A stretch of DNA of 23,120 nucleotides, taken from positions 1 to 23,120 of the IMG/VR virus record IMGVR_UViG_3300025687_004884; one strand, 5' to 3'. This document shows positions 1-12,018 of this stretch, piece by piece. The translations under genes were made by a program, and so were the position numbers. Numbering within the stretch: the first letter of the stretch is position 1; every line of letters starts with the position of its first letter. The notes beneath the pieces were generated by a model. That model was not told where the DNA came from, ran no database searches, and was given only the letters and a program-made list of their open reading frames with translations. Source of the stretch: a virus.

Positions 1-103
1 CCCATTTCTGCGCCAAAGTTTATTTACCTTGCCGCGTTTACCTAGCTTAACATTGACAACGACGCCGGGCAGCGGCGGACGATCGGCGGAAACCTGGGCG
101 CAT
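1..103. other. left-edge stretch with no supported gene
   Basis: I see no gene here that I can support. On the plus strand, codons 1-45 stay open to a TAG at 43-45 and could be the last residues of a gene entering from the left. On the minus strand one frame stays open from the TAG at 157-159 to the window edge, but it has no good start codon and crosses a terminator. Either could be real, and the sequence to the left would decide. Confidence 0.3.
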
Positions 104-137
104 AAAAAAACGCCGGGCGGCTTTCGCCGTCCAGCGT
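104..137 (-). terminator. intrinsic terminator after the 70-residue gene
   Basis: Read on the minus strand, this is a 12-pair stem with one wobble and one mismatch (110-121 against 126-137), a GAAA loop and a run of seven T. It lies about 20 bases after the stop of the gene at 157-369. The T run is followed by ATGCGCC, the same tail as in the terminator at 2085-2120, so the two terminators share a 3' flank. Confidence 0.85.
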
Positions 138-156
138 TGTCGATGCTGGTCGAATC

Positions 157-369
157 CTAGTCTTCGTCGACGAACGTCATCAGGTCCGCCACTGACGGCC
201 GCCGGTATCGCCCGTCAATCCACCGCCGACATTCGTCGACGGTCTTCGCCCGGTGAACCGGGAACCCGCCGGCGTTCAGTACGGCCGGCCGGCCGTCAGT
301 CGTGTCAATGTCGTGGCCGCGGTAGCGGAAGCCGAACCAACGCCGTTCGATTGCGTGTCGCGTGTTCAT
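157..369 (-). CDS. hypothetical 70-residue early protein
   Basis: Not recognised. It is a small protein rich in Arg and aromatic residues. The start at 369 is chosen because CGAAAGG (377-383 on the plus map) sits seven bases upstream. The longer open frame reaching 534 would translate the CA-repeat leader as His-Thr repeats and cross the promoter, so it is not the real start. The gene is a self-contained unit: promoter with a TATAAT box at 415-443, CA-repeat leader, gene, terminator at 104-137. This arrangement resembles the accessory 'moron' genes of phages. Function cannot be inferred from the sequence. It uses the same GAC/CGC-rich codons as its neighbours. Confidence 0.7.
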   Translation of the reverse strand: MNTRHAIERRWFGFRYRGHDIDTTDGRPAVLNAGGFPVHRAKTVDECRRWIDGRYRRPSVADLMTFVDED

Positions 370-376
370 TCGATCG

Positions 377-402
377 CCTTTCGTGTGTGTGTGTGTGTGT
401 GC
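377..402 (-). repeat. (CA)9 leader plus CGAAAGG ribosome site
   Basis: On the minus strand a run of about nine CA dinucleotides (383-401) is followed directly by CGAAAGG and, seven bases later, the start codon of the 70-residue gene. The promoter's TATAAT ends at 415, so transcription should begin near 408 and nearly the whole leader is CA repeat. The same (CA)n-CGAAAGG block precedes other minus-strand genes. A CA tract is unstructured and could aid ribosome loading, or it could vary in length by slippage. Confidence 0.75.
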
Positions 403-414
403 GTCCAAGTGTCC

Positions 415-443
415 ATTATACCATATCCCGGTCGACCGGTCAA
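415..443 (-). promoter_or_regulatory. sigma70 promoter with palindromic operator (P1)
   Basis: Minus-strand TTGACC (438-443) and a perfect TATAAT (415-420) are separated by exactly 17 bases. The spacer starts with a 12-bp perfect palindrome, CCGGTCGACCGG (428-439), which overlaps the -35 box. A repressor binding there would block RNA polymerase. The 15-base string TTGACCGGTCGACCG recurs in the promoter at 2006-2034. The ribbon-helix-helix protein encoded at 961-1158 is a candidate ligand, but that link is inference only. Confidence 0.85.
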
Positions 444-458
444 CCCGTCGTTTTGTGC

Positions 459-926
459 CTATTTGTCGAACCTGGGCGAAAACGAAACAGGCAGCCCAAC
501 ACCGGCACAACGCGACCGAACAAACCGCGAACATGGTTCGATAGTTTCTGTTTGTTTCAAGCCGTGTTTTATTTGAATCCTAGACATTGAACCGTACGGA
601 ATAAACCGCCGGCCGAATCGTTCCGCGTCGTCGTCGTTCAACAACCAGGACGAACCCCATTGGTTATAGATGCGACGTTTCGACACGACGCGACCGGTTT
701 CGGCGTCGACCAAAATTTCGCGACGGGCGGCCGGTCCATCGATTCCAAGTTCGGCGCCGTTCTCCAAAAGTCGGATTGCCAAACGATCAAAATCGATCAT
801 TTGCGACGACGCCCACGACGACAAGCCAACATCGGAAACATCGAAATCGAGTCGTTCAACATTCTTCGCCGTGTCACGTTCGATTCGGTTTTGATGAAAT
901 TCAATCGTTCGGATTTCGTATGACAT
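459..926 (-). CDS. hypothetical 155-residue early protein
   Basis: Not recognised. The protein is soluble, mixed acidic and basic, with no membrane segment or clear motif. The start at 926 follows a GAGGAA ribosome site 6-7 bases upstream, itself preceded by a (CA)6 tract at 939-950. The longer frame to 1094 would overlap the regulator gene and read through the leader. The C-terminal 40 or so residues look less typical: more Cys, and ATA, AGG and ACT codons that are rare in the neighbours. Near 574-582 the sequence CTAGGATTC repeats the stop region of the 70-residue gene, but here it is read in a frame where TAG is not a stop. An old frameshift that added a tail is possible but unproven. The stop lies 15 bases before promoter P1. 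Confidence 0.65.
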   Translation of the reverse strand: MSYEIRTIEFHQNRIERDTAKNVERLDFDVSDVGLSSWASSQMIDFDRLAIRLLENGAELGIDGPAARREILVDAETGRVVSKRRIYNQWGSSWLLNDDDAERFGRRFIPYGSMSRIQIKHGLKQTETIEPCSRFVRSRCAGVGLPVSFSPRFDK

Positions 927-930
927 GTCC

Positions 931-950
931 CATTCCTCGTGTGTGTGTGT
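931..950 (-). repeat. (CA)6 leader with GAGGAA ribosome site
   Basis: On the minus strand six CA units (939-950) are followed by CGAGGAATGGGAC and the start codon of the 155-residue gene. It is the same kind of leader as the others, but the Shine-Dalgarno is GAGG rather than AAAGG. It fills most of the short gap after the ribbon-helix-helix gene, which ends at 961. Confidence 0.65.
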
Positions 951-960
951 TTTGTGTCTT

Positions 961-1158
961 TCAAACGTCGATCGTCTTGAACGCCTTTTCAATCGCAAGC
1001 CGCACGACTTCCGACGCGGGAACCCAGGTCGACTCCGCCGTCTTGCAAAGCCGCAAGCCTGGAATCGGCCGCCGGGCCAACGCCTGGGCGACAATGTCGA
1101 TTCGTTCTTTCAATTCTTCAGGAACGCGAATTTGCGTCGTTGACCGGTTTTCCTTCAT
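961..1158 (-). CDS. ribbon-helix-helix DNA-binding regulator
   Basis: A 65-residue protein with the layout of the Arc/MetJ/CopG ribbon-helix-helix family. A short basic N-terminus leads into a beta strand (TTQIRVP, residues 7-13), then helix A (about 14-30) and helix B (PASEVVRLAIEKAFK, 47-61). Such proteins dimerise, and the paired strands read bases in palindromic operators. The loop between the helices (about residues 31-46) is longer than usual for the family. The start at 1158 has CGAAAGG eight bases upstream. It is the only evident transcription regulator in the window and lies among promoters carrying a shared palindrome, so it may control the minus-strand genes. Target and sign of regulation are inference. 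A TTGACCGGT half-site occurs within its own first codons (plus strand near 1139-1147), which could allow autoregulation. Confidence 0.75.
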   Translation of the reverse strand: MKENRSTTQIRVPEELKERIDIVAQALARRPIPGLRLCKTAESTWVPASEVVRLAIEKAFKTIDV

Positions 1159-1166
1159 AGTGTCCG

Positions 1167-1173
1167 CCTTTCG
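1167..1173 (-). promoter_or_regulatory. CGAAAGG ribosome site of the regulator gene
   Basis: This is the conserved CGAAAGG heptamer, here preceded by CAAACA rather than a pure CA tract. It sits eight bases before the ATG at 1158 and fixes the start of the ribbon-helix-helix gene. It is one of five identical heptamers in front of minus-strand genes. Confidence 0.7.
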
Positions 1174-1213
1174 TGTTTGCGGCCGTTAGCGTGGACGCTG
1201 GACCGCTTCAAAT

Positions 1214-1243
1214 GGAAAACGCCCGTCGACGATCGACGGGCGT
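1214..1243 (-). terminator. intrinsic terminator after the 136-residue gene
   Basis: Minus strand: an 11-pair perfect stem (1219-1229 with 1233-1243), a three-base loop, then TTTT. It lies about 20 bases past the stop at 1261, and the gap is filled with an A/C-rich CAAACA-type tract. The next gene downstream, the ribbon-helix-helix regulator, has no strong promoter of its own that I can see, so some read-through is likely. Confidence 0.8.
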
Positions 1244-1260
1244 GTGTTTGTTTGTGTTTG

Positions 1261-1671
1261 TTACGCGAAGGCGGGGTTTTGCGCCCAACCGGAACCGCCT
1301 TTCAATGTCCACAAATCGCGAACCCAATCACCGGCGTCGTTCTTGTGTTTCACTTCGTACCGCGACTGAATACCAGACTCAGCGTCGCGTTTGACGACGT
1401 CCAAAAAGTAACGTTCGTACTTTTCCCAATTTCCCCAATCGCCAAGCGGAACCGAACACTCATTAGTTTCGCCGTTTTTGGTCGCACTATAGGAAACCAC
1501 ATATTCGACCCAAACCCTTTCGAATCCGTCGATCAAATTGATTTCGCTTTCGGCAAAAAAAACGTCGTCCCAATTTTCCGCACCATCGACGACTTCCCAG
1601 GGCGACAAAACAAAGTCGACCGATCGAGGATTAACTAATTCGCCCGTTTCGATATTTTTAAAAATCCACAT
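1261..1671 (-). CDS. hypothetical 136-residue early protein
   Basis: Not recognised. It is an acidic, Trp- and Tyr-rich soluble protein with no signal peptide or membrane segment. The N-terminal residues (MWIFKNIETGELVNPRS) read like a small beta-sheet domain, and the C-terminal third holds a charged stretch (YEVKHKNDAGDWVRDLW). The start at 1671 follows GAAAGGGAAAACGAA and a (CA)5 leader. It lies directly after the terminator of the 71-residue gene, with only about 28 bases between, which leaves no room for a normal promoter. It must be expressed by read-through or by a non-standard promoter. Its own terminator is at 1214-1243. Confidence 0.75.
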   Translation of the reverse strand: MWIFKNIETGELVNPRSVDFVLSPWEVVDGAENWDDVFFAESEINLIDGFERVWVEYVVSYSATKNGETNECSVPLGDWGNWEKYERYFLDVVKRDAESGIQSRYEVKHKNDAGDWVRDLWTLKGGSGWAQNPAFA

Positions 1672-1680
1672 TTCGTTTTC

Positions 1681-1696
1681 CCTTTCGTGTGTGTGT
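1681..1696 (-). repeat. (CA)5-CGAAAGG leader of the 136-residue gene
   Basis: Minus strand: five CA units followed by CGAAAGGG, then AAAACGAA and the start codon at 1671. It begins only three bases after the T run of the upstream terminator (1699-1725). The leader is therefore present even where no promoter separates the two genes, which suggests it acts at the RNA or translation level rather than as part of a promoter. Confidence 0.7.
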
Positions 1697-1698
1697 CC

Positions 1699-1725
1699 AA
1701 AAAATGCCGCCGGGCGACCGGCGGC
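1699..1725 (-). terminator. intrinsic terminator after the 71-residue gene
   Basis: Minus strand: an eight-pair GC-only stem (1706-1713 with 1718-1725), TCGC loop, then ATTTTTT. It lies 15 bases after the stop at 1741. The stem and T run fit the standard intrinsic terminator form. Confidence 0.85.
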
Positions 1726-1740
1726 CGTGTGCGTTGCGAC

Positions 1741-1956
1741 CTAAAACAAGCGATGACCAAAAGCCGGAACGGCGATTGGCAAGCCAAATTTTTCACGCTT
1801 GCAATTAAATGCCGACAATTCGCGTTTCGCGACGTCGACGCCGTGTGCATCCGCGACCATTTCGGCCGCCCACAAAGCAACGGTCGGATCGAAGAAACCG
1901 AAGCCTGCGTCAAATTCGTCCGCCATAACTTTCAAAATGTTTTTGAAACCTTTCAT
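1741..1956 (-). CDS. hypothetical 71-residue early protein
   Basis: Not recognised. It is a small protein with an amphipathic N-terminal half (MKGFKNILKVMADEFDAG) and a predicted helical middle (VALWAAEMVADAHG). The start at 1956 follows CGAAAGGCGAAACG. The longer frame to 2130 would translate the CA leader and promoter. The unit is complete: promoter P2 at 2006-2034, CA leader at 1964-1993, gene, terminator at 1699-1725. No function can be assigned. Confidence 0.7.
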   Translation of the reverse strand: MKGFKNILKVMADEFDAGFGFFDPTVALWAAEMVADAHGVDVAKRELSAFNCKREKFGLPIAVPAFGHRLF

Positions 1957-1963
1957 CGTTTCG

Positions 1964-1993
1964 CCTTTCGTGTGTGTGTGTGCGTGTGTGTGT
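1964..1993 (-). repeat. interrupted (CA)n-CGAAAGG leader of the 71-residue gene
   Basis: Minus strand: two CA tracts split by a single G (around 1983) run into CGAAAGG (1964-1970) and the start codon at 1956. Transcription from P2 should start near the distal end of the tract, so the 5' untranslated region is almost only CA repeat and ribosome site, as for the gene at 157-369. Confidence 0.75.
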
Positions 1994-2000
1994 CTGACGT

Positions 2001-2034
2001 GATACAGTATCGGCGAAAGCGGTCGACCGGTCAA
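2001..2034 (-). promoter_or_regulatory. sigma70-like promoter with two palindromes (P2)
   Basis: Minus-strand TTGACC (2029-2034) is 17 bases from GATACT (2006-2011). The spacer carries CGGTCGACCG (2020-2029), in the same place relative to the -35 box as in P1. A second inverted repeat, GATAC-A-GTATC (2001-2011), covers the -10 region. The -10 box is weaker than in P1, so this promoter may be less active or may depend on a regulator. Confidence 0.7.
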
Positions 2035-2084
2035 CCACAATAAACACAAACCGACGGATTTTTTCGAAAATAGTTTCGGCGCAT

Positions 2085-2120
2085 AAAAAAAGCCGCGTCC
2101 GGTGGTAGACGGTACGCGGC
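2085..2120 (-). terminator. intrinsic terminator after the 27-residue gene
   Basis: Minus strand: an outer seven-pair stem GCCGCGT/ACGCGGC (2114-2120 with 2092-2098), a possible inner ACCG/CCGG extension, then seven T. The T run continues into ATGCGCC, as in the terminator at 104-137. It ends the transcript holding the zinc-finger and micro-membrane-protein genes. Confidence 0.8.
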
Positions 2121-2140
2121 GGGGACACACACAGTCGAGG

Positions 2141-2224
2141 CTAGACGCCCCAACAGATCATCATTGTGACGCCAACGGAAAGCGCGACAAGTATCGACAT
2201 TAGTAAAAAATCTTTCACCATCAT
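2141..2224 (-). CDS. 27-residue single-pass membrane peptide
   Basis: A very short gene: MMVKDFLLMSIL, then a hydrophobic run through ALSVGVTMMICW to the stop. A charged KD pair lies near the N-terminus and the rest is one continuous membrane segment. Phages use such micro-proteins as membrane anchors, holin-like or exclusion factors, but I cannot say which. Support for a real gene: its ATG overlaps the TGA of the zinc-finger gene (ATGA, 2221-2224), AAAGGGG lies just upstream, and a terminator follows at 2085-2120. A second in-frame ATG directly follows, and initiation there would match the usual seven-base spacing better. Codon choice is ordinary for the region. Confidence 0.6.
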   Translation of the reverse strand: MMVKDFLLMSILVALSVGVTMMICWGV

Positions 2225-2556
2225 TTCGCCCCTTTCGCGTGTGTGTACTGGTCGACAATCACGGCCAAACATTGGTCGCCATTTTCAAGCCGACGCATAA
2301 TTTCCCGACAAACAACGGTTTCCGTGTCGCCGTTCCCGCCGTAGAACGCGATCGATTGAATCAGTTCGCGCAGATACCAAAACGCGAAACGGCCACCGCA
2401 CGCACGCCGCGTTTCCTCAATCAGTCGCAGGACGACGGCGGCACGTTTCAAGCGACCAACTCCGCGACATTCCAAACAACGCGACATACCGCGACCGGCT
2501 TCGATCGGCCGGCGACATTCTTCACAATCCAAAACTTCGAAATCCAAATTTCGCAT
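2221..2556 (-). CDS. C4 zinc-finger protein (TraR/DksA-like module)
   Basis: A 111-residue protein. Near the N-terminus it has Cys11-x2-Cys14 and Cys27-x2-Cys30, with CEECRRPI and RCLEC flanks. This layout is close to the four-Cys zinc finger of TraR/DksA-type proteins, which act on RNA polymerase. The rest is mostly helical (AAVVLRLIEETRRACGG, then WYLRELIQSIAFY) with no family I recognise, so the function is open. The start at 2556 follows AAGGGAG eight bases upstream and a CA/CAAA tract. Longer upstream starts would translate that tract. The last residues (YTHAKGAK) are encoded by the CA-CGAAAGG block that serves the overlapping downstream peptide gene. P3 (2602-2630) is the likely promoter. 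Confidence 0.65.
   Translation of the reverse strand: MRNLDFEVLDCEECRRPIEAGRGMSRCLECRGVGRLKRAAVVLRLIEETRRACGGRFAFWYLRELIQSIAFYGGNGDTETVVCREIMRRLENGDQCLAVIVDQYTHAKGAK
2231..2246 (-). repeat. (CA)4-CGAAAGG block inside a coding region
   Basis: Minus strand: four CA units, CG, then CGAAAGGGG. Here the leader block does not sit in an intergenic gap. It forms the last codons of the zinc-finger gene while placing a ribosome site in front of the 27-residue gene. Confidence 0.6.
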
Positions 2557-2601
2557 TTTCGAAACTCCCTTGTTTGTGTGTGTTTGTGTGTGTCGGTGGT
2601 T

Positions 2602-2630
2602 GTTGTATCGGCTTCGTTTTCGCTGGTCAA
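2602..2630 (-). promoter_or_regulatory. possible promoter P3 for the zinc-finger gene
   Basis: Minus-strand TTGACC (2625-2630) with TACAAC (2602-2607) at 17 bases, or GATACA (2604-2609) at 15. The -35 hexamer equals that of P1 and P2, but the palindrome is absent. It lies upstream of the CA/CAAA leader and the start at 2556. It faces away from the plus-strand element at 2651-2688, making a compact divergent control region. Confidence 0.5.
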
Positions 2631-2650
2631 CAGAAGTTTTTCGTTTTTTG

Positions 2651-2688
2651 TGTCCGTTTGTGTGCGTTTCTGGCAACTATACAAACAA
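2651..2688 (+). promoter_or_regulatory. repeated promoter-like element, copy 1
   Basis: TGTCC, 15 variable bases, then TGGCAACTATACAAACAA (2671-2688). The same string with the same spacing occurs at 12252-12289 and I saw it nowhere else. TATACA (2678-2683) can serve as a -10 box, but no normal -35 lies 16-18 bases upstream, so a phage-specific activator or altered polymerase may be needed. It stands before the first plus-strand gene and would drive the late operon. Confidence 0.6.
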
Positions 2689-2702
2689 GGGAAAACCCAA
2701 CA

Positions 2703-2725
2703 GCGGGTGATCGCGTGGCGCCCGC
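2703..2725 (+). other. hairpin in the leader of the first plus-strand gene
   Basis: A seven-pair stem with one wobble (GCGGGTG, 2703-2709, against 2719-2725) and a nine-base loop lies between the promoter-like element and the ribosome site AAAAGG at 2741-2746. It has no T run, so it is not a terminator. It may stabilise the messenger or be incidental. Confidence 0.35.
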
Positions 2726-2754
2726 ATTTCCCCAAATTTCAAAAGGTTCTGGAA

Positions 2755-3201
2755 ATGTCAATCATTCAACGACTTGCAAACATGGGCGATTTTTTTGGTT
2801 TGTTGATGAAAATCGACCCGGCCGACGTTTTAAAAATTGCGGAAAGCGTCCGCGTTCTGTCGGACGATGACGCCGATTTGAAAATTCGCGTATTGGCGGG
2901 AATCGACGTCGCCGACGTCCTGGTCGAATACACGCCAACCGAGGCCGACGACATGTTCGTCGATTGGATCGCAAAGCTAGCCGAATCCGAGGGCGTTTGG
3001 TCGATCGTTGACGCCGTCCGCGAATTGATCGACGGCCGCAAAGTCGGCGAATTGACCATCGTCGCCGATTACCCGCGCGGCGTGACCGTTGGCGAAACCG
3101 ACGAAGAAACCGGCGAAGTTCAAACAATTCCGGTCGGCGTCATTGTTCAGGTAGCGGTTTTCGTCGTGCAAATGATTCGATTGCTAAAAGAAAACAAATG
3201 A
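2755..3201 (+). CDS. hypothetical acidic protein with hydrophobic C-terminus (148 residues)
   Basis: Not recognised. The first 105 or so residues are acidic and helical, with repeated aliphatic spacing (PADVLKIAESVRVL, IDVADVLVEY). Near the end, VGVIVQVAVFVVQMIRLL looks like a membrane or strongly hydrophobic segment followed by a basic tail. The start at 2755 has AAAAGG eight bases upstream. The open frame extends to 2239 but crosses the promoter-like element. It is first in the plus-strand operon, and its TGA overlaps the ATG of the next gene, a two-helix membrane protein. A membrane-linked or lysis-related role is a guess from context only. Confidence 0.7.
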   Translation: MSIIQRLANMGDFFGLLMKIDPADVLKIAESVRVLSDDDADLKIRVLAGIDVADVLVEYTPTEADDMFVDWIAKLAESEGVWSIVDAVRELIDGRKVGELTIVADYPRGVTVGETDEETGEVQTIPVGVIVQVAVFVVQMIRLLKENK

Positions 3202-3752
3202 TCCAAAACGCATTGTTGACGGCGCTTTTGTTGGTCGGCGTCGTTTTAGTTTTCCAACAATATTTGGTCGCCATAATCCGCGCGATTCGCGACCGCGTGT
3301 CCAAACTCCGTTGGACAATGGCGGTCGGTTTCGCGTTGATTGCCGTCGTTGTCTGGACCGCCTATTCTGACGCACCGCGGCCGCCGAAACCAACGCCGAA
3401 ACCAAACAGCTACGTTTCGGCAGACGTCGCCGAGGAATTGCTACCGTTCCAAAGCGACGACGATTTGGCGGCCGCGGCGGAAACATGGTCGGCCGTGTTT
3501 CTGACGTTTTCCGATTTGATCGAAGCCGACGGCCGCACGTCAAACCCGCTTATTCGCCGCGTGGACGACGTGCGACGCATACGCGACAACATTGTCGCCG
3601 TTCCCATTTCTGGCGTTCCTGGAGGCGACGTCGTGGCCGTGGCGGTCGGTCCAGCATTGGACGACCTGGGCGTCGGTGAACTAACCGACGCAAAACGACA
3701 AGCCGTCGTCGATTTATTCCGCGGCGTCGGTCAAACGTTGAGGGCGAAATAA
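3198..3752 (+). CDS. membrane-anchored protein with soluble C-terminal domain (184 residues)
   Basis: Two hydrophobic segments at the N-terminus (about residues 4-24 and 39-57) are separated by a basic loop (RAIRDRVSKLRW). A Pro/Lys linker (RPPKPTPKPN) follows, then a soluble domain of about 110 residues with no recognised family. The layout suggests a membrane anchor presenting a domain across the membrane. It overlaps the previous gene by ATGA and the next by TAATG, so all three are probably translated in a coupled way. It lies just before the cysteine peptidase and may help place that enzyme at the membrane. It could also act as a holin-like or pinholin factor, which the sequence does not settle. 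Confidence 0.7.
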   Translation: MIQNALLTALLLVGVVLVFQQYLVAIIRAIRDRVSKLRWTMAVGFALIAVVVWTAYSDAPRPPKPTPKPNSYVSADVAEELLPFQSDDDLAAAAETWSAVFLTFSDLIEADGRTSNPLIRRVDDVRRIRDNIVAVPISGVPGGDVVAVAVGPALDDLGVGELTDAKRQAVVDLFRGVGQTLRAK

Positions 3753-4726
3753 TGGCGCGCGTGTTCGGATGGACGCCCGACGCCGACGGCGTCGAATCGA
3801 TAATTGCCGACGCCACGTCCGACGTGTTCAACATGTCGCCCGCCGACGATCGCGAAATCGGCGTGTGTGCGTTCCAGTCGCGCGAATCCGATCCGATAGT
3901 GCTTTTCGACGCGTTGCGTCCTCTCGAACCGAATTGGCGACGTGGCGCCCAAAAAATCGGCGATTGTGTGTCGTGGGGATACGCGATCGCGGCCGACCTA
4001 GTTGTCGCCGTTTCGATTTGGTTGAAGCAGTCGCCGTGGGAATGGCCGGGCGTGTTCGCGACCGAACCAATTTACGGCGGATCGCGCGTCGAGGCACGCG
4101 GAAAAAAGACCGCCGGTTATTCCGACGGCAGCTACGGCGGTGCGGCGGCCAAGTGGTTAACCAAATGGGGCGCATTAAACCGAATCGATTATTCGCTTGC
4201 GACCGGCAACGCCGAACACAATTTGACAACGTACAGCGGCGAACGTGCGAAGGCGTGGGGAAACTGGGGATGCGGCGGACGCCATGATCGCGACAAATTG
4301 GACGCCGTCGCCCGACAACGCCCGGTTTCGAAAGCGTACCGCGTGACGTCGTTCGATCAATTGGCGGCCGCAATTAAAAACGGATACCCGGTCGCAATTT
4401 GCAGCGGCCAGGGATTAGGCAAACGCAACGCGGACGGATTCGCACCGCCGAGGGGTTCCTGGTCGCATTGTATGACGGCGACCGGTCTTCGTTTCGACAA
4501 ACCCGGCGCGTTAATCACGAACAGTTGGGGCAATTCCTGGGGAACGTCCGCACCGCTTCCGGGCGTTGATTGGGACGAAGTTAAAAAATGTTCGGCGTGG
4601 GTCGACGCGAAAACCGTCGACCGAATGTTGAAACAAAACGATTCGTTCGCGTTGACCGGCGTCGACGGCTTGAAACGACGCGAAATCAATTGGCGGGAAG
4701 GTTGGGTTATCAATGGACGTTCGTAG
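3752..4726 (+). CDS. papain-like (C1 family) cysteine peptidase
   Basis: A 324-residue protein with all papain-family landmarks in order. QKIGDCVSW holds the oxyanion Gln67 and nucleophile Cys72. SWSHCM holds the catalytic His239. NSWGNSWG holds Asn257, as in the papain signature. An N-terminal segment of about 60 residues precedes the Gln-Cys motif and may act as a short propeptide. No signal peptide is visible. The enzyme should cut peptide bonds. Phages usually lyse cells with amidases, endopeptidases or muramidases of other folds, so a C1 enzyme beside membrane proteins is unusual. It could be an endolysin, a virion enzyme used at entry, or a protease against host proteins. Its neighbours (membrane proteins before, lipoprotein and holin-like protein after) favour a role at the cell envelope. 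Confidence 0.85.
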   Translation: MARVFGWTPDADGVESIIADATSDVFNMSPADDREIGVCAFQSRESDPIVLFDALRPLEPNWRRGAQKIGDCVSWGYAIAADLVVAVSIWLKQSPWEWPGVFATEPIYGGSRVEARGKKTAGYSDGSYGGAAAKWLTKWGALNRIDYSLATGNAEHNLTTYSGERAKAWGNWGCGGRHDRDKLDAVARQRPVSKAYRVTSFDQLAAAIKNGYPVAICSGQGLGKRNADGFAPPRGSWSHCMTATGLRFDKPGALITNSWGNSWGTSAPLPGVDWDEVKKCSAWVDAKTVDRMLKQNDSFALTGVDGLKRREINWREGWVINGRS

Positions 4727-9571: not shown

Positions 9572-9952
9572 ATGCCGCGTTTGCTAATCCAACGCCCGGT
9601 TTTGTCGATCGGCGACACCGATTTGTTTTCGGTCGATTTATCGCGTCGGCTCGATTCGGCCGAAACGTTGACGTCGCCGACCGTGATTGAAGTGGACGAA
9701 GACGGCGACGCAATAACCGGCGGCGAATTGACCATCGCCGACGTTGCCGTTTCAACTGTCGCATACAACGACGAAAACAACTACGACGCCAACGGGAACG
9801 CGACAACGGTCGGCATTGGGAAAGCGGTCCAATTTACCGTGTCGACGTCGCAAACGCTTCCGGGCGTCAAATACGCGTTGTTAACAGTCAATTCGACCGG
9901 TGGCAGTATCGCCAGGACGTTGGAACGCATGATAAAAATCGAGTTTAAATAA
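9572..9952 (+). CDS. small Ig-like tail or fibre-adaptor protein (126 residues)
   Basis: A beta-rich single domain. It opens with a D-x-S-x-x-L-D-S-x-E-T-x-T-S pattern (SVDLSRRLDSAETLTSPTV). It then has an acidic loop and a GKAVQFTVS...GVKYALLTVNSTGG segment, and ends with basic-hydrophobic alternation (RTLERMIKIEF). This order resembles the short fibre-tail adaptor proteins of siphoviruses, which have one Ig-like fold per gene. The match is by pattern only. A GAGG ribosome site lies upstream. The stop overlaps the terminase start (TAATG). An uncharacterised virion protein is the alternative. Confidence 0.5.
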   Translation: MPRLLIQRPVLSIGDTDLFSVDLSRRLDSAETLTSPTVIEVDEDGDAITGGELTIADVAVSTVAYNDENNYDANGNATTVGIGKAVQFTVSTSQTLPGVKYALLTVNSTGGSIARTLERMIKIEFK

Positions 9953-12018
9953 TGGACACGACCGGCGCCGCATACGAACGACACCGCGAAAAAATGGCGT
10001 TGCGACAACGCGACGCCCGCGCAAAAGCCGCCGAAATTGGACCGCTTCCGGAAGTGGTCGACCCGGATCGCCGGCAGCGTTGCCGGGAATCGTTGCGGGA
10101 ATTTGCCGAAACGTATCGCCCGGAAGCGTTTTCGCTTGGTTGGTCGGAAGACCATTTAAGAATCCTGGAACGCTTCGAAACGACGGTTCGCGACGGCGGT
10201 TTGTTCGCGTTAGCTATGCCGCGTGGATCGGGAAAAACGACGATTACAATCACGGCGGCTTTGTGGGCGTTGCTTTACGGTTTCCGAAATTGGGTTTGTT
10301 TGGTCGGGGCGACCGGTCCGAAGGCGGCCGCGCTTTTGAAGTCGATTAAAACCGAATTGCGTTTCAATCCGTTGTTGCTTCAGGATTTCCCCGAAACTTG
10401 CCACCCGATTGCACGACTTGAAGGGAAAGCGATTCGGGCGAACGCCCAAACGCTGGACGGCGTCGAAACGAACATTGAATGGCTCGCCGAATCGTTGACG
10501 TTTCCGACGGTCGCCGATTCGCCGTCGTCCGGTGCGGTTGTTACGGTGGCAGGTATTACGGGCGACATTCGCGGCCAGCAAAAAACGCTTTCCGACGGCC
10601 GCGTGATTCGGCCGGATTTCGTGATCGGCGACGACGTCCAAACGCGCGAGTCGGCGAAGTCGCGGCAACAAACCGACGATCGTTTGGCGATCATTCACGG
10701 TGATATTTTGGGCCTTGGCGGTCCAGGCGTCAAAATGTCGGGCGTGTTTCCGATTACGGTGATCCAACGCGGCGACGTGGCCGAACGATTGTTGGACACG
10801 GAAACGTCGCCGGAATTCCACGGCGAACGAACACGGCTTTTGTACGGCATGCCGACGAACATGTCGTTGTGGAACAAGTACAGCGAAATTCGCGACGCGG
10901 ATTTCCGAAATGGCGGCGATGGATCGGTCGCGACGGAATTCTATCGGGAAAACCGGGCCGACATGGAGGTCGGTTGTCGCGCCGCGTGGGACGACCGACA
11001 CAATCCCGACGAAATCAGCGGAATACAACACGCATTGAATTTGTATTTCCGCGACGAAGGGGCGTTCTGGGCCGAGTTCCAAAACGAACCGATCCAAACG
11101 GCCGCCGACGATTTAATTTCCGAAGACGAAATAACAGAACGCGTTCACGCGTACAAACGCGGCATCGTTCCCGACGAAGCCGACATGGTCACGGCTTTCG
11201 TTGACGTCCAAAAACAAATGTTGTTCTATTGCGTGACCGCGTGGCGAAAAGATTTCACCGGGTACGTCATCGACTACGGCGGATTCCCCGACCAGCAAAC
11301 GACCAACTTTCGATATCAACAAGCAAAACAAACGTTGTCGAAACGTTGGCCGGGTGAATCGTTGGAAGTGACGTTGACGCGCGGTTTAAATGAATTGATT
11401 AACGGTCTGTGCGGCCGGTCATGGACAACGCCGACAGGAACCGAACTTTCGATCGAACGCGTTTTGATCGACGCGAACTGGGGTTTGTCGCGGAATATCG
11501 TTTACGAATTCGCCCGACGTTCGCAACATAAAGCGATCATTTTTCCGTCGCATGGAAAAGGCGTCGGGGCGTCCGCCGAACCGTTAAACGCGAAACACGT
11601 CAAAAAGGCGGGCCGGTCGGTCGGTTTACATTGGAGGGTCGACAAAAGCCGCGACGCGCCGAACAGGTACGTTGTCTACGACACAAATCATTGGAAGTCG
11701 TTCTGTTTTGCCCGGCTCGGGACCGAACCTGGAACGTCGTCCAGTTTGACGTTATACGAAGCGACGCCGCGAACGCACAAAACATTTGCCCGACACCTTA
11801 AAAGCGAATATCCGGTCACGGTCGAAGGTCGTGGCCGCACCGTCGACGAATGGAAAACCCGCGCGGATTTGGCCGACAACCATTGGTTCGATTGTTTGGT
11901 CGGAACGTGCGTCGCGGCTTCGGTCCAGGGTTGCAACTTGACCGACAAAACGAAAACGATTTTCGGTTCGAATTCTGCACCGAAGCGAAAACGCAAACGT
12001 CGAAACGTGAGTTTTTAA
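9952..12018 (+). CDS. terL: terminase large subunit (DNA packaging ATPase and nuclease)
   Basis: A 688-residue motor protein that pumps phage DNA into the prohead and cuts the concatemer. Walker A is MPRGSGKTT (residues 89-97, Lys95). Walker B is FVIGDD (223-228), followed by a QTRES coupling-type segment. The RNase H-like nuclease acids are candidates at Asp418 (AFVDVQ), Asp507 (VLIDANW) and Asp647 (HWFDCLVG). The VDVQ motif, HWFD ending and length fit the lambda gpA-like branch better than the shorter T4 or HK97 types. The Lys/Arg-rich tail (KRKRKRR) may contact DNA. No small terminase gene is recognisable nearby. A gpW homologue and portal follow, as in lambda. Long antisense open frames over this gene are composition shadows. 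Confidence 0.95.
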   Translation: MDTTGAAYERHREKMALRQRDARAKAAEIGPLPEVVDPDRRQRCRESLREFAETYRPEAFSLGWSEDHLRILERFETTVRDGGLFALAMPRGSGKTTITITAALWALLYGFRNWVCLVGATGPKAAALLKSIKTELRFNPLLLQDFPETCHPIARLEGKAIRANAQTLDGVETNIEWLAESLTFPTVADSPSSGAVVTVAGITGDIRGQQKTLSDGRVIRPDFVIGDDVQTRESAKSRQQTDDRLAIIHGDILGLGGPGVKMSGVFPITVIQRGDVAERLLDTETSPEFHGERTRLLYGMPTNMSLWNKYSEIRDADFRNGGDGSVATEFYRENRADMEVGCRAAWDDRHNPDEISGIQHALNLYFRDEGAFWAEFQNEPIQTAADDLISEDEITERVHAYKRGIVPDEADMVTAFVDVQKQMLFYCVTAWRKDFTGYVIDYGGFPDQQTTNFRYQQAKQTLSKRWPGESLEVTLTRGLNELINGLCGRSWTTPTGTELSIERVLIDANWGLSRNIVYEFARRSQHKAIIFPSHGKGVGASAEPLNAKHVKKAGRSVGLHWRVDKSRDAPNRYVVYDTNHWKSFCFARLGTEPGTSSSLTLYEATPRTHKTFARHLKSEYPVTVEGRGRTVDEWKTRADLADNHWFDCLVGTCVAASVQGCNLTDKTKTIFGSNSAPKRKRKRRNVSF

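Follow-up and report, generated by a model that had tools for sequence, protein, structure and literature searches.

CA-repeat leaders joined to an extended Shine-Dalgarno sequence before the minus-strand genes of a tailed phage: a probable, recurrent translation-initiation element

Translation of several enteric genes is raised by C/A-rich sequences near the ribosome-binding site. ACA triplets just 5′ of the Shine-Dalgarno (SD) sequence raise the translation of yifK, up to 90% of which is lost on mutation, and ACA motifs upstream of the SD of dppA raise translation more than 100-fold (PMC3879156). The same source also describes a CA-rich element of the enteric chromosomal gene gltI, located 45 nt upstream of the start, as a transferable enhancer, and cites work in E. 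coli in which CA repeats placed downstream of the start increased translation (Martin-Farmer and Janssen 1999, via PMC3879156). Anchoring of the 30S subunit through ribosomal protein S1 has been suggested for the ACA enhancers, and for yifK, too, S1 or 30S binding stands as a proposal (PMC3879156).

The window analyzed here, meaning the whole stretch of DNA under study, corresponds to a single IMG/VR virus record with a length of 23,120 bases. It represents a tailed phage with its structural genes on the plus strand (terminase at 9952–12018, portal, major head protein and tape measure). A 324-aa plus-strand protein (3752–4726) contains DCVSWG, SHCMTATG and NSWGNSWG motifs that recall papain-like peptidases, and it had no Pfam match at E 0.01. 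Seven small minus-strand genes are clustered between 157 and 2556, with starts at 369, 926, 1158, 1671, 1956, 2224 and 2556. They encode two proteins of unknown function, of 70 aa (157–369; no Pfam or PHROG match) and 155 aa (459–926), a 65-aa protein with weak ribbon-helix-helix similarity below the Pfam cut-off (961–1158), a 136-aa protein (p136; 1261–1671), a 71-aa protein (p71; 1741–1956), a hydrophobic 27-aa ORF (2141–2224) and a 111-aa protein with CxxC pairs (2221–2556). Neither Pfam nor PHROGs assigned a function to the cluster proteins, and the region gave no BLAST match among cultured phages. A near relative, IMGVR_UViG_3300020189_001013 (L016; also L023, L042 and L168), has a terminase protein that is 99% identical and DNA that is about 87–89% identical in the cluster; the 70-aa protein is 83% identical. 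A viral scan for further relatives returned only this one.

Could the sequences in front of these seven genes be elements of the same kind? We observed that all seven (7/7) carry a tract of only C and A just 5′ of the start, followed by a purine-rich SD about 6–9 nt from the start codon, whereas the leader is absent from the plus-strand genes. A C/A-rich, ACA-containing sequence close 5′ of the SD, the mark of the ACA and CA-rich enhancers, is likewise found in 7/7 leaders. The leader of gene 369 (377–401, minus strand, as are all that follow) comprises (CA)9 at 384–401 and CGAAAGG at 377–383, with the ATG 7 nt on. Gene 926 is preceded by GACACAAAA(CA)5 and then an SD-like CGAGGAA (927–964), with a tract core that is kept in L016. 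The leader of gene 1158, CAAACACGAAAGG, is a short C/A stretch, CAAACA, joined to CGAAAGG (1167–1179) and identical in L016. The leader of gene 1671 is (CA)4 plus CGAAAGG (1681–1696), directly after a terminator-like hairpin with a T-rich tail (GCCGCCGG-TCGC-CCGGCGGC; 1706–1725), and that of gene 1956 is (CA)4CG(CA)6 plus CGAAAGG (1964–1993). Gene 2224 has a ACACACAC-GCGAAAGG leader (2231–2246) inside the 3′ end of the ORF 2221–2556, and gene 2556 has (CA)4AA(CA)4AA followed by an AAGGGAG SD (2565–2593), the tract being invariant in L016.

The six CA-tract sites listed in the initial annotation are thus all present before the named minus-strand genes, and gene 1158, missing from that list, brings the cluster to 7/7. 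The annotation was also right that the leader persists with a terminator directly upstream (gene 1671) and within a coding region (gene 2224), and that five minus-strand leaders contain exact CGAAAGG copies (377, 1167, 1681, 1964 and 2231); a sixth minus-strand copy, at 1516, is intragenic and has no tract. What it did not contain is that this heptamer, as read from the sequence, is an extended SD sequence. GAAAGG, which it contains, makes up the 5′ portion of a complete complement to the canonical 16S tail and would pair with CCUUUC there, and the heptamer accordingly needs no special explanation. Judged against this canonical tail, the leaders have the complementarity to the 16S 3′ end, close before the start codon, that marks an SD sequence.

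We found 16 copies of CACACACA in the window (overlapping positions counted) compared with 0.47 expected in shuffles, a ~34-fold excess, and 15 of the 16 lie on the minus strand, in leaders. CGAAAGG by itself is enriched only about twofold (10 versus 4.9). C/A-only runs of at least 10 nt within the 45 nt before the start occur at 5/7 minus-strand genes, compared with 4.9% of random minus-strand windows and 1/27 plus-strand ORFs.

In L016, the leader is kept at every orthologous gene, including that of gene 369, which reads CACAAA(CA)5 plus CGAAAGG. Tract lengths differ by about one unit at most between the two phages, with 11–13% divergence outside the tracts; within the tract cores, C to A replacements and 2-nt indels make up most of the changes, and at the 2224 leader, a +2 and a −2 indel compensate each other and the SD is kept. 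Furthermore, the leaders persist where the genes do not. The genes for p71 and p136 (1261–1956) are missing from L016, which has no homologue of either and carries unrelated genes in their place (2022–3120). At these positions, the leader, hairpin, promoter and terminator blocks stay, and homology is lost from the ATG onward and picked up again at the stop or terminator. The 1671 leader stands before an unrelated gene in L016, with CGCAAGG, as does the 1956 leader, whose promoter-leader block is found a second time elsewhere in L016. The initial annotation held that relatives with the same genes but no CA tracts would reduce the tract to a mutational by-product. The close relative does have the tracts. 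More distant terminase relatives (L024–L041; 39–51% terminase identity) have neither CA leaders nor homologues of the cluster genes, and because these genes are also absent there, they do not test the conservation of the tract.

The region contains only two consensus sigma70-like promoters, at genes 369 and 1956, and both end 12–13 nt before the tract. The former is TTGACC-N17-TATAAT (415–443; 11/12 matches, with TG before the −10), which reads TTGACC-N17-TACAAT in L016. The latter is a promoter-like TTGACC-N17-GATACT (2006–2034) that includes a palindromic GGTTGACCGGTCGACC, a stretch present three times in L016. Since the scan would return 1.5 such promoters by chance, their weight rests on their position and conservation. 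The predicted promoters stop just before the tracts, so at these two genes, the mRNA would begin with the tract, which would then form the 5′ UTR. The palindromic GGTTGACCGGTCGACC covers the −35 and spacer of both promoters (430–445 and 2021–2036, minus strand) and might be a shared operator; the weakly ribbon-helix-helix-like protein of 961–1158 is a candidate binder of this stretch.

Are such leaders found beyond these two phages? We scanned 2.9 million viral contigs for the exact pattern (CA)6-N0-3-AAGGA-N4-8-ATG, with TG, CT and GA tracts as controls, the TG tract being the CA tract in the wrong orientation. The results show 103 viral stretches with CA, compared with 1 with TG, 8 with CT and 1 with GA. 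At the 102 loci examined, the ATG is in 102/102 cases the start of an ORF of 32 codons or longer; among random ATGs, ~40% begin an ORF of 30 codons or longer. These loci fall into 44 unrelated clusters, the largest of which holds 47 of the 102 sites and shares a common small protein family, a concentration that counts against the enhancer reading. An earlier viral scan for (CA)5CGAAAGG gave 18 stretches, most with a start codon just 3′, and an unrelated phage (L012) has seven CA leaders of 4 to 22 units between 2801 and 5175, often with GGACAA as the SD. Bacterial genomes seldom contain this pattern (14 occurrences in 257 Gb), a number that does not allow a per-base comparison, as the viral set is sized in contigs; in one bacterial phylum, the (CA)5 version was present in 3/399 genomes (one of them chosen for having it) versus 0 for TG. 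A general hairpin 5′ of the CA tracts was also considered and rejected, as z was below −2 in 11/43 clusters, a signal suggestive of upstream terminators only. Our searches, which covered open-access literature, turned up no description of CA-repeat leaders as a general feature of phages.

The small protein encoded after (CA)6-SD in the cluster of 47 loci (L044, L063, L083, L121 and others) has the signature GYEIR/GYELR ... AEKLYxFV. The family occurs in many, often large, phage contigs, and neither of the two members compared with PHROGs had a match.

As far as sequence comparison can tell, the CA-repeat SD leader is a real, conserved and recurrent phage element, one that probably offers ribosomes a prepared landing site instead of being a random repeat. 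We consider it likely that each cluster gene carries a translation-initiation leader in which a C/A tract and an extended SD act together like the published CA-rich enhancers. The anatomy itself is plain from the sequence: a stretch consisting nearly entirely of C and A, in the predicted 5′ UTR or between cistrons, is joined to CGAAAGG or a variant SD. The tract would stay single-stranded and could offer a landing or standby site to the 30S subunit, probably via ribosomal protein S1, from which the SD would pair with the CCUUUC of the 16S tail. With a common leader of this kind, small accessory or early proteins would be translated strongly whatever the gene, and genes could be exchanged behind it. 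Of the possibilities raised in the initial annotation, an RNA-level role as a translation enhancer is the best-supported reading, given the position of the tract between promoter and SD, the terminator and coding contexts, the replacement of genes behind the leader and the orientation bias. The element is not of a new kind, as ACA and CA-rich enhancers 5′ of the SD have already been published (PMC3879156).

Could the tract, on the other hand, bind nothing and serve only to keep the SD unstructured, as any unstructured sequence would? CA repeats are able to pair neither with one another nor with the SD, and folding predictions place SD accessibility above that with random upstream sequence at some leaders. 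The natural upstream sequence clearly helps at only 3 or 4 of the 7 genes, a point that counts against the enhancer reading as well. A general gain was rejected, because there was none at 369, 1158 and 2556 (3/7 genes); with better accessibility at some genes only, plain freedom from structure fails to explain all sites. Furthermore, the effects of the ACA triplets are sequence-specific in yifK and dppA (PMC3879156). The orientation bias fits an inert spacer as well, since CA, alone of the four tracts, neither pairs with the SD, mimics it nor forms wobble structure, and S1 docking and a structure-free spacer cannot be separated by sequence alone. On balance, we regard the spacer as unlikely, though the strongest of the rivals. 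The chances are much poorer for the view that the main use of the leader and terminator blocks is to supply homology for the exchange of gene cassettes. The breaks of homology at the ATG, its return at the stop or terminator and the duplicated promoter-leader block of L016 fit such exchange, but it does not account for the register of the SD or for the fact that single CA leaders recur among phages that are unrelated. Slightly poorer still is the prospect of a functionless product of neutral replication slippage. Dinucleotide repeats do arise in this way and the lengths vary slightly between relatives, but slippage predicts equal numbers of CA and TG tracts before SDs, which the 103 versus 1 in phages contradicts, and the tracts are restricted to leaders and outlast the replacement of the genes behind them. 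Least probable of all is a phase-variable dial of expression through tract length, which the initial annotation had also offered. The tracts of L012 do span 4 to 22 units, but highly variable length among near relatives was not seen, window and L016 differing by about one unit at most despite their 11–13% divergence; moreover, most tracts are short, and from their place in UTRs they cannot shift a reading frame. This suggestion was not borne out.

It is also conceivable, if improbable, that the tracts let a trans-acting regulator control the cluster jointly, be it an RNA-binding protein, a GU-rich host sRNA of GcvB type or the phage's own UGUGUGUGU 3′-UTR RNA (2123–2135). GcvB silences CA-rich enhancers through GU pairing (PMC3879156). 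In the window, the only (GU)4 in minus-strand sense lies within ACUGUGUGUGUCC (2123–2135), just before a terminator-like stem-loop with a T run (2085–2120) in the cluster. This GU-rich 3′-UTR element, ACTGTGTGTGTCC, is complementary to the CA leaders and unchanged in L016, although its flank differs there and the hairpin has altered in both arms of its stem, which is kept by a paired change (CCGCGT/ACGCGG to CCGCGA/TCGCGG). The predicted duplex energies of the GU element favor the leaders (−12.6 to −19.8 kcal/mol) over plus-strand starts (−3.6 to −15.7 kcal/mol). On the other hand, GU–CA complementarity is automatic, the element may belong to the terminator region and is partly paired in the fold, and no such element was seen in L012; a search of positions 1–3000 gave no relevant Rfam match to sRNA families. 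One speculative possibility is that UGUGUGUGU, which is conserved and precedes the terminator at 2092–2120, could pair with the leaders. That the phage has its own GcvB-like regulon, in which a GU-rich RNA from the 3′ UTR (2080–2135) would set the translation of the whole accessory cluster, newly acquired genes included, is a more distant prospect than trans-acting control in general. If the GU element were real in this sense, it would amount to a phage-encoded sRNA regulon.

Returning to the leader as a translation-initiation element, many unrelated phages may carry a CA tract and an SD, fused, as a translation module that can be moved between genes, and the ACA enhancer idea, so far drawn from a few enteric genes, would then apply to phages at large. 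The CA-SD leader would help the calling of gene starts in phages and would provide a compact leader for expression work. Another known phage leader likewise consists of an SD and an upstream enhancer stretch, but its enhancer appears to be a different one. The repeats of Martin-Farmer and Janssen (1999), as cited in PMC3879156, are the same CA dinucleotides, but theirs were placed after the start codon. According to the same source, gltI, a target of GcvB, has a CA-rich 5′-UTR element like the one predicted here, together with a possible GU-rich antagonist; it differs in being an enteric chromosomal gene with its element 45 nt upstream of the start, whereas the phage sRNA is putative. A further close likeness is to the Salmonella yifK and dppA enhancers (PMC3879156), which have the same C/A-rich, ACA-containing stretch just 5′ of the SD and no strict spacing. 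Compared with these, the phage leaders, whose effect is a predicted one, are almost pure CA tracts and are reused before every gene of the cluster and in many phages.
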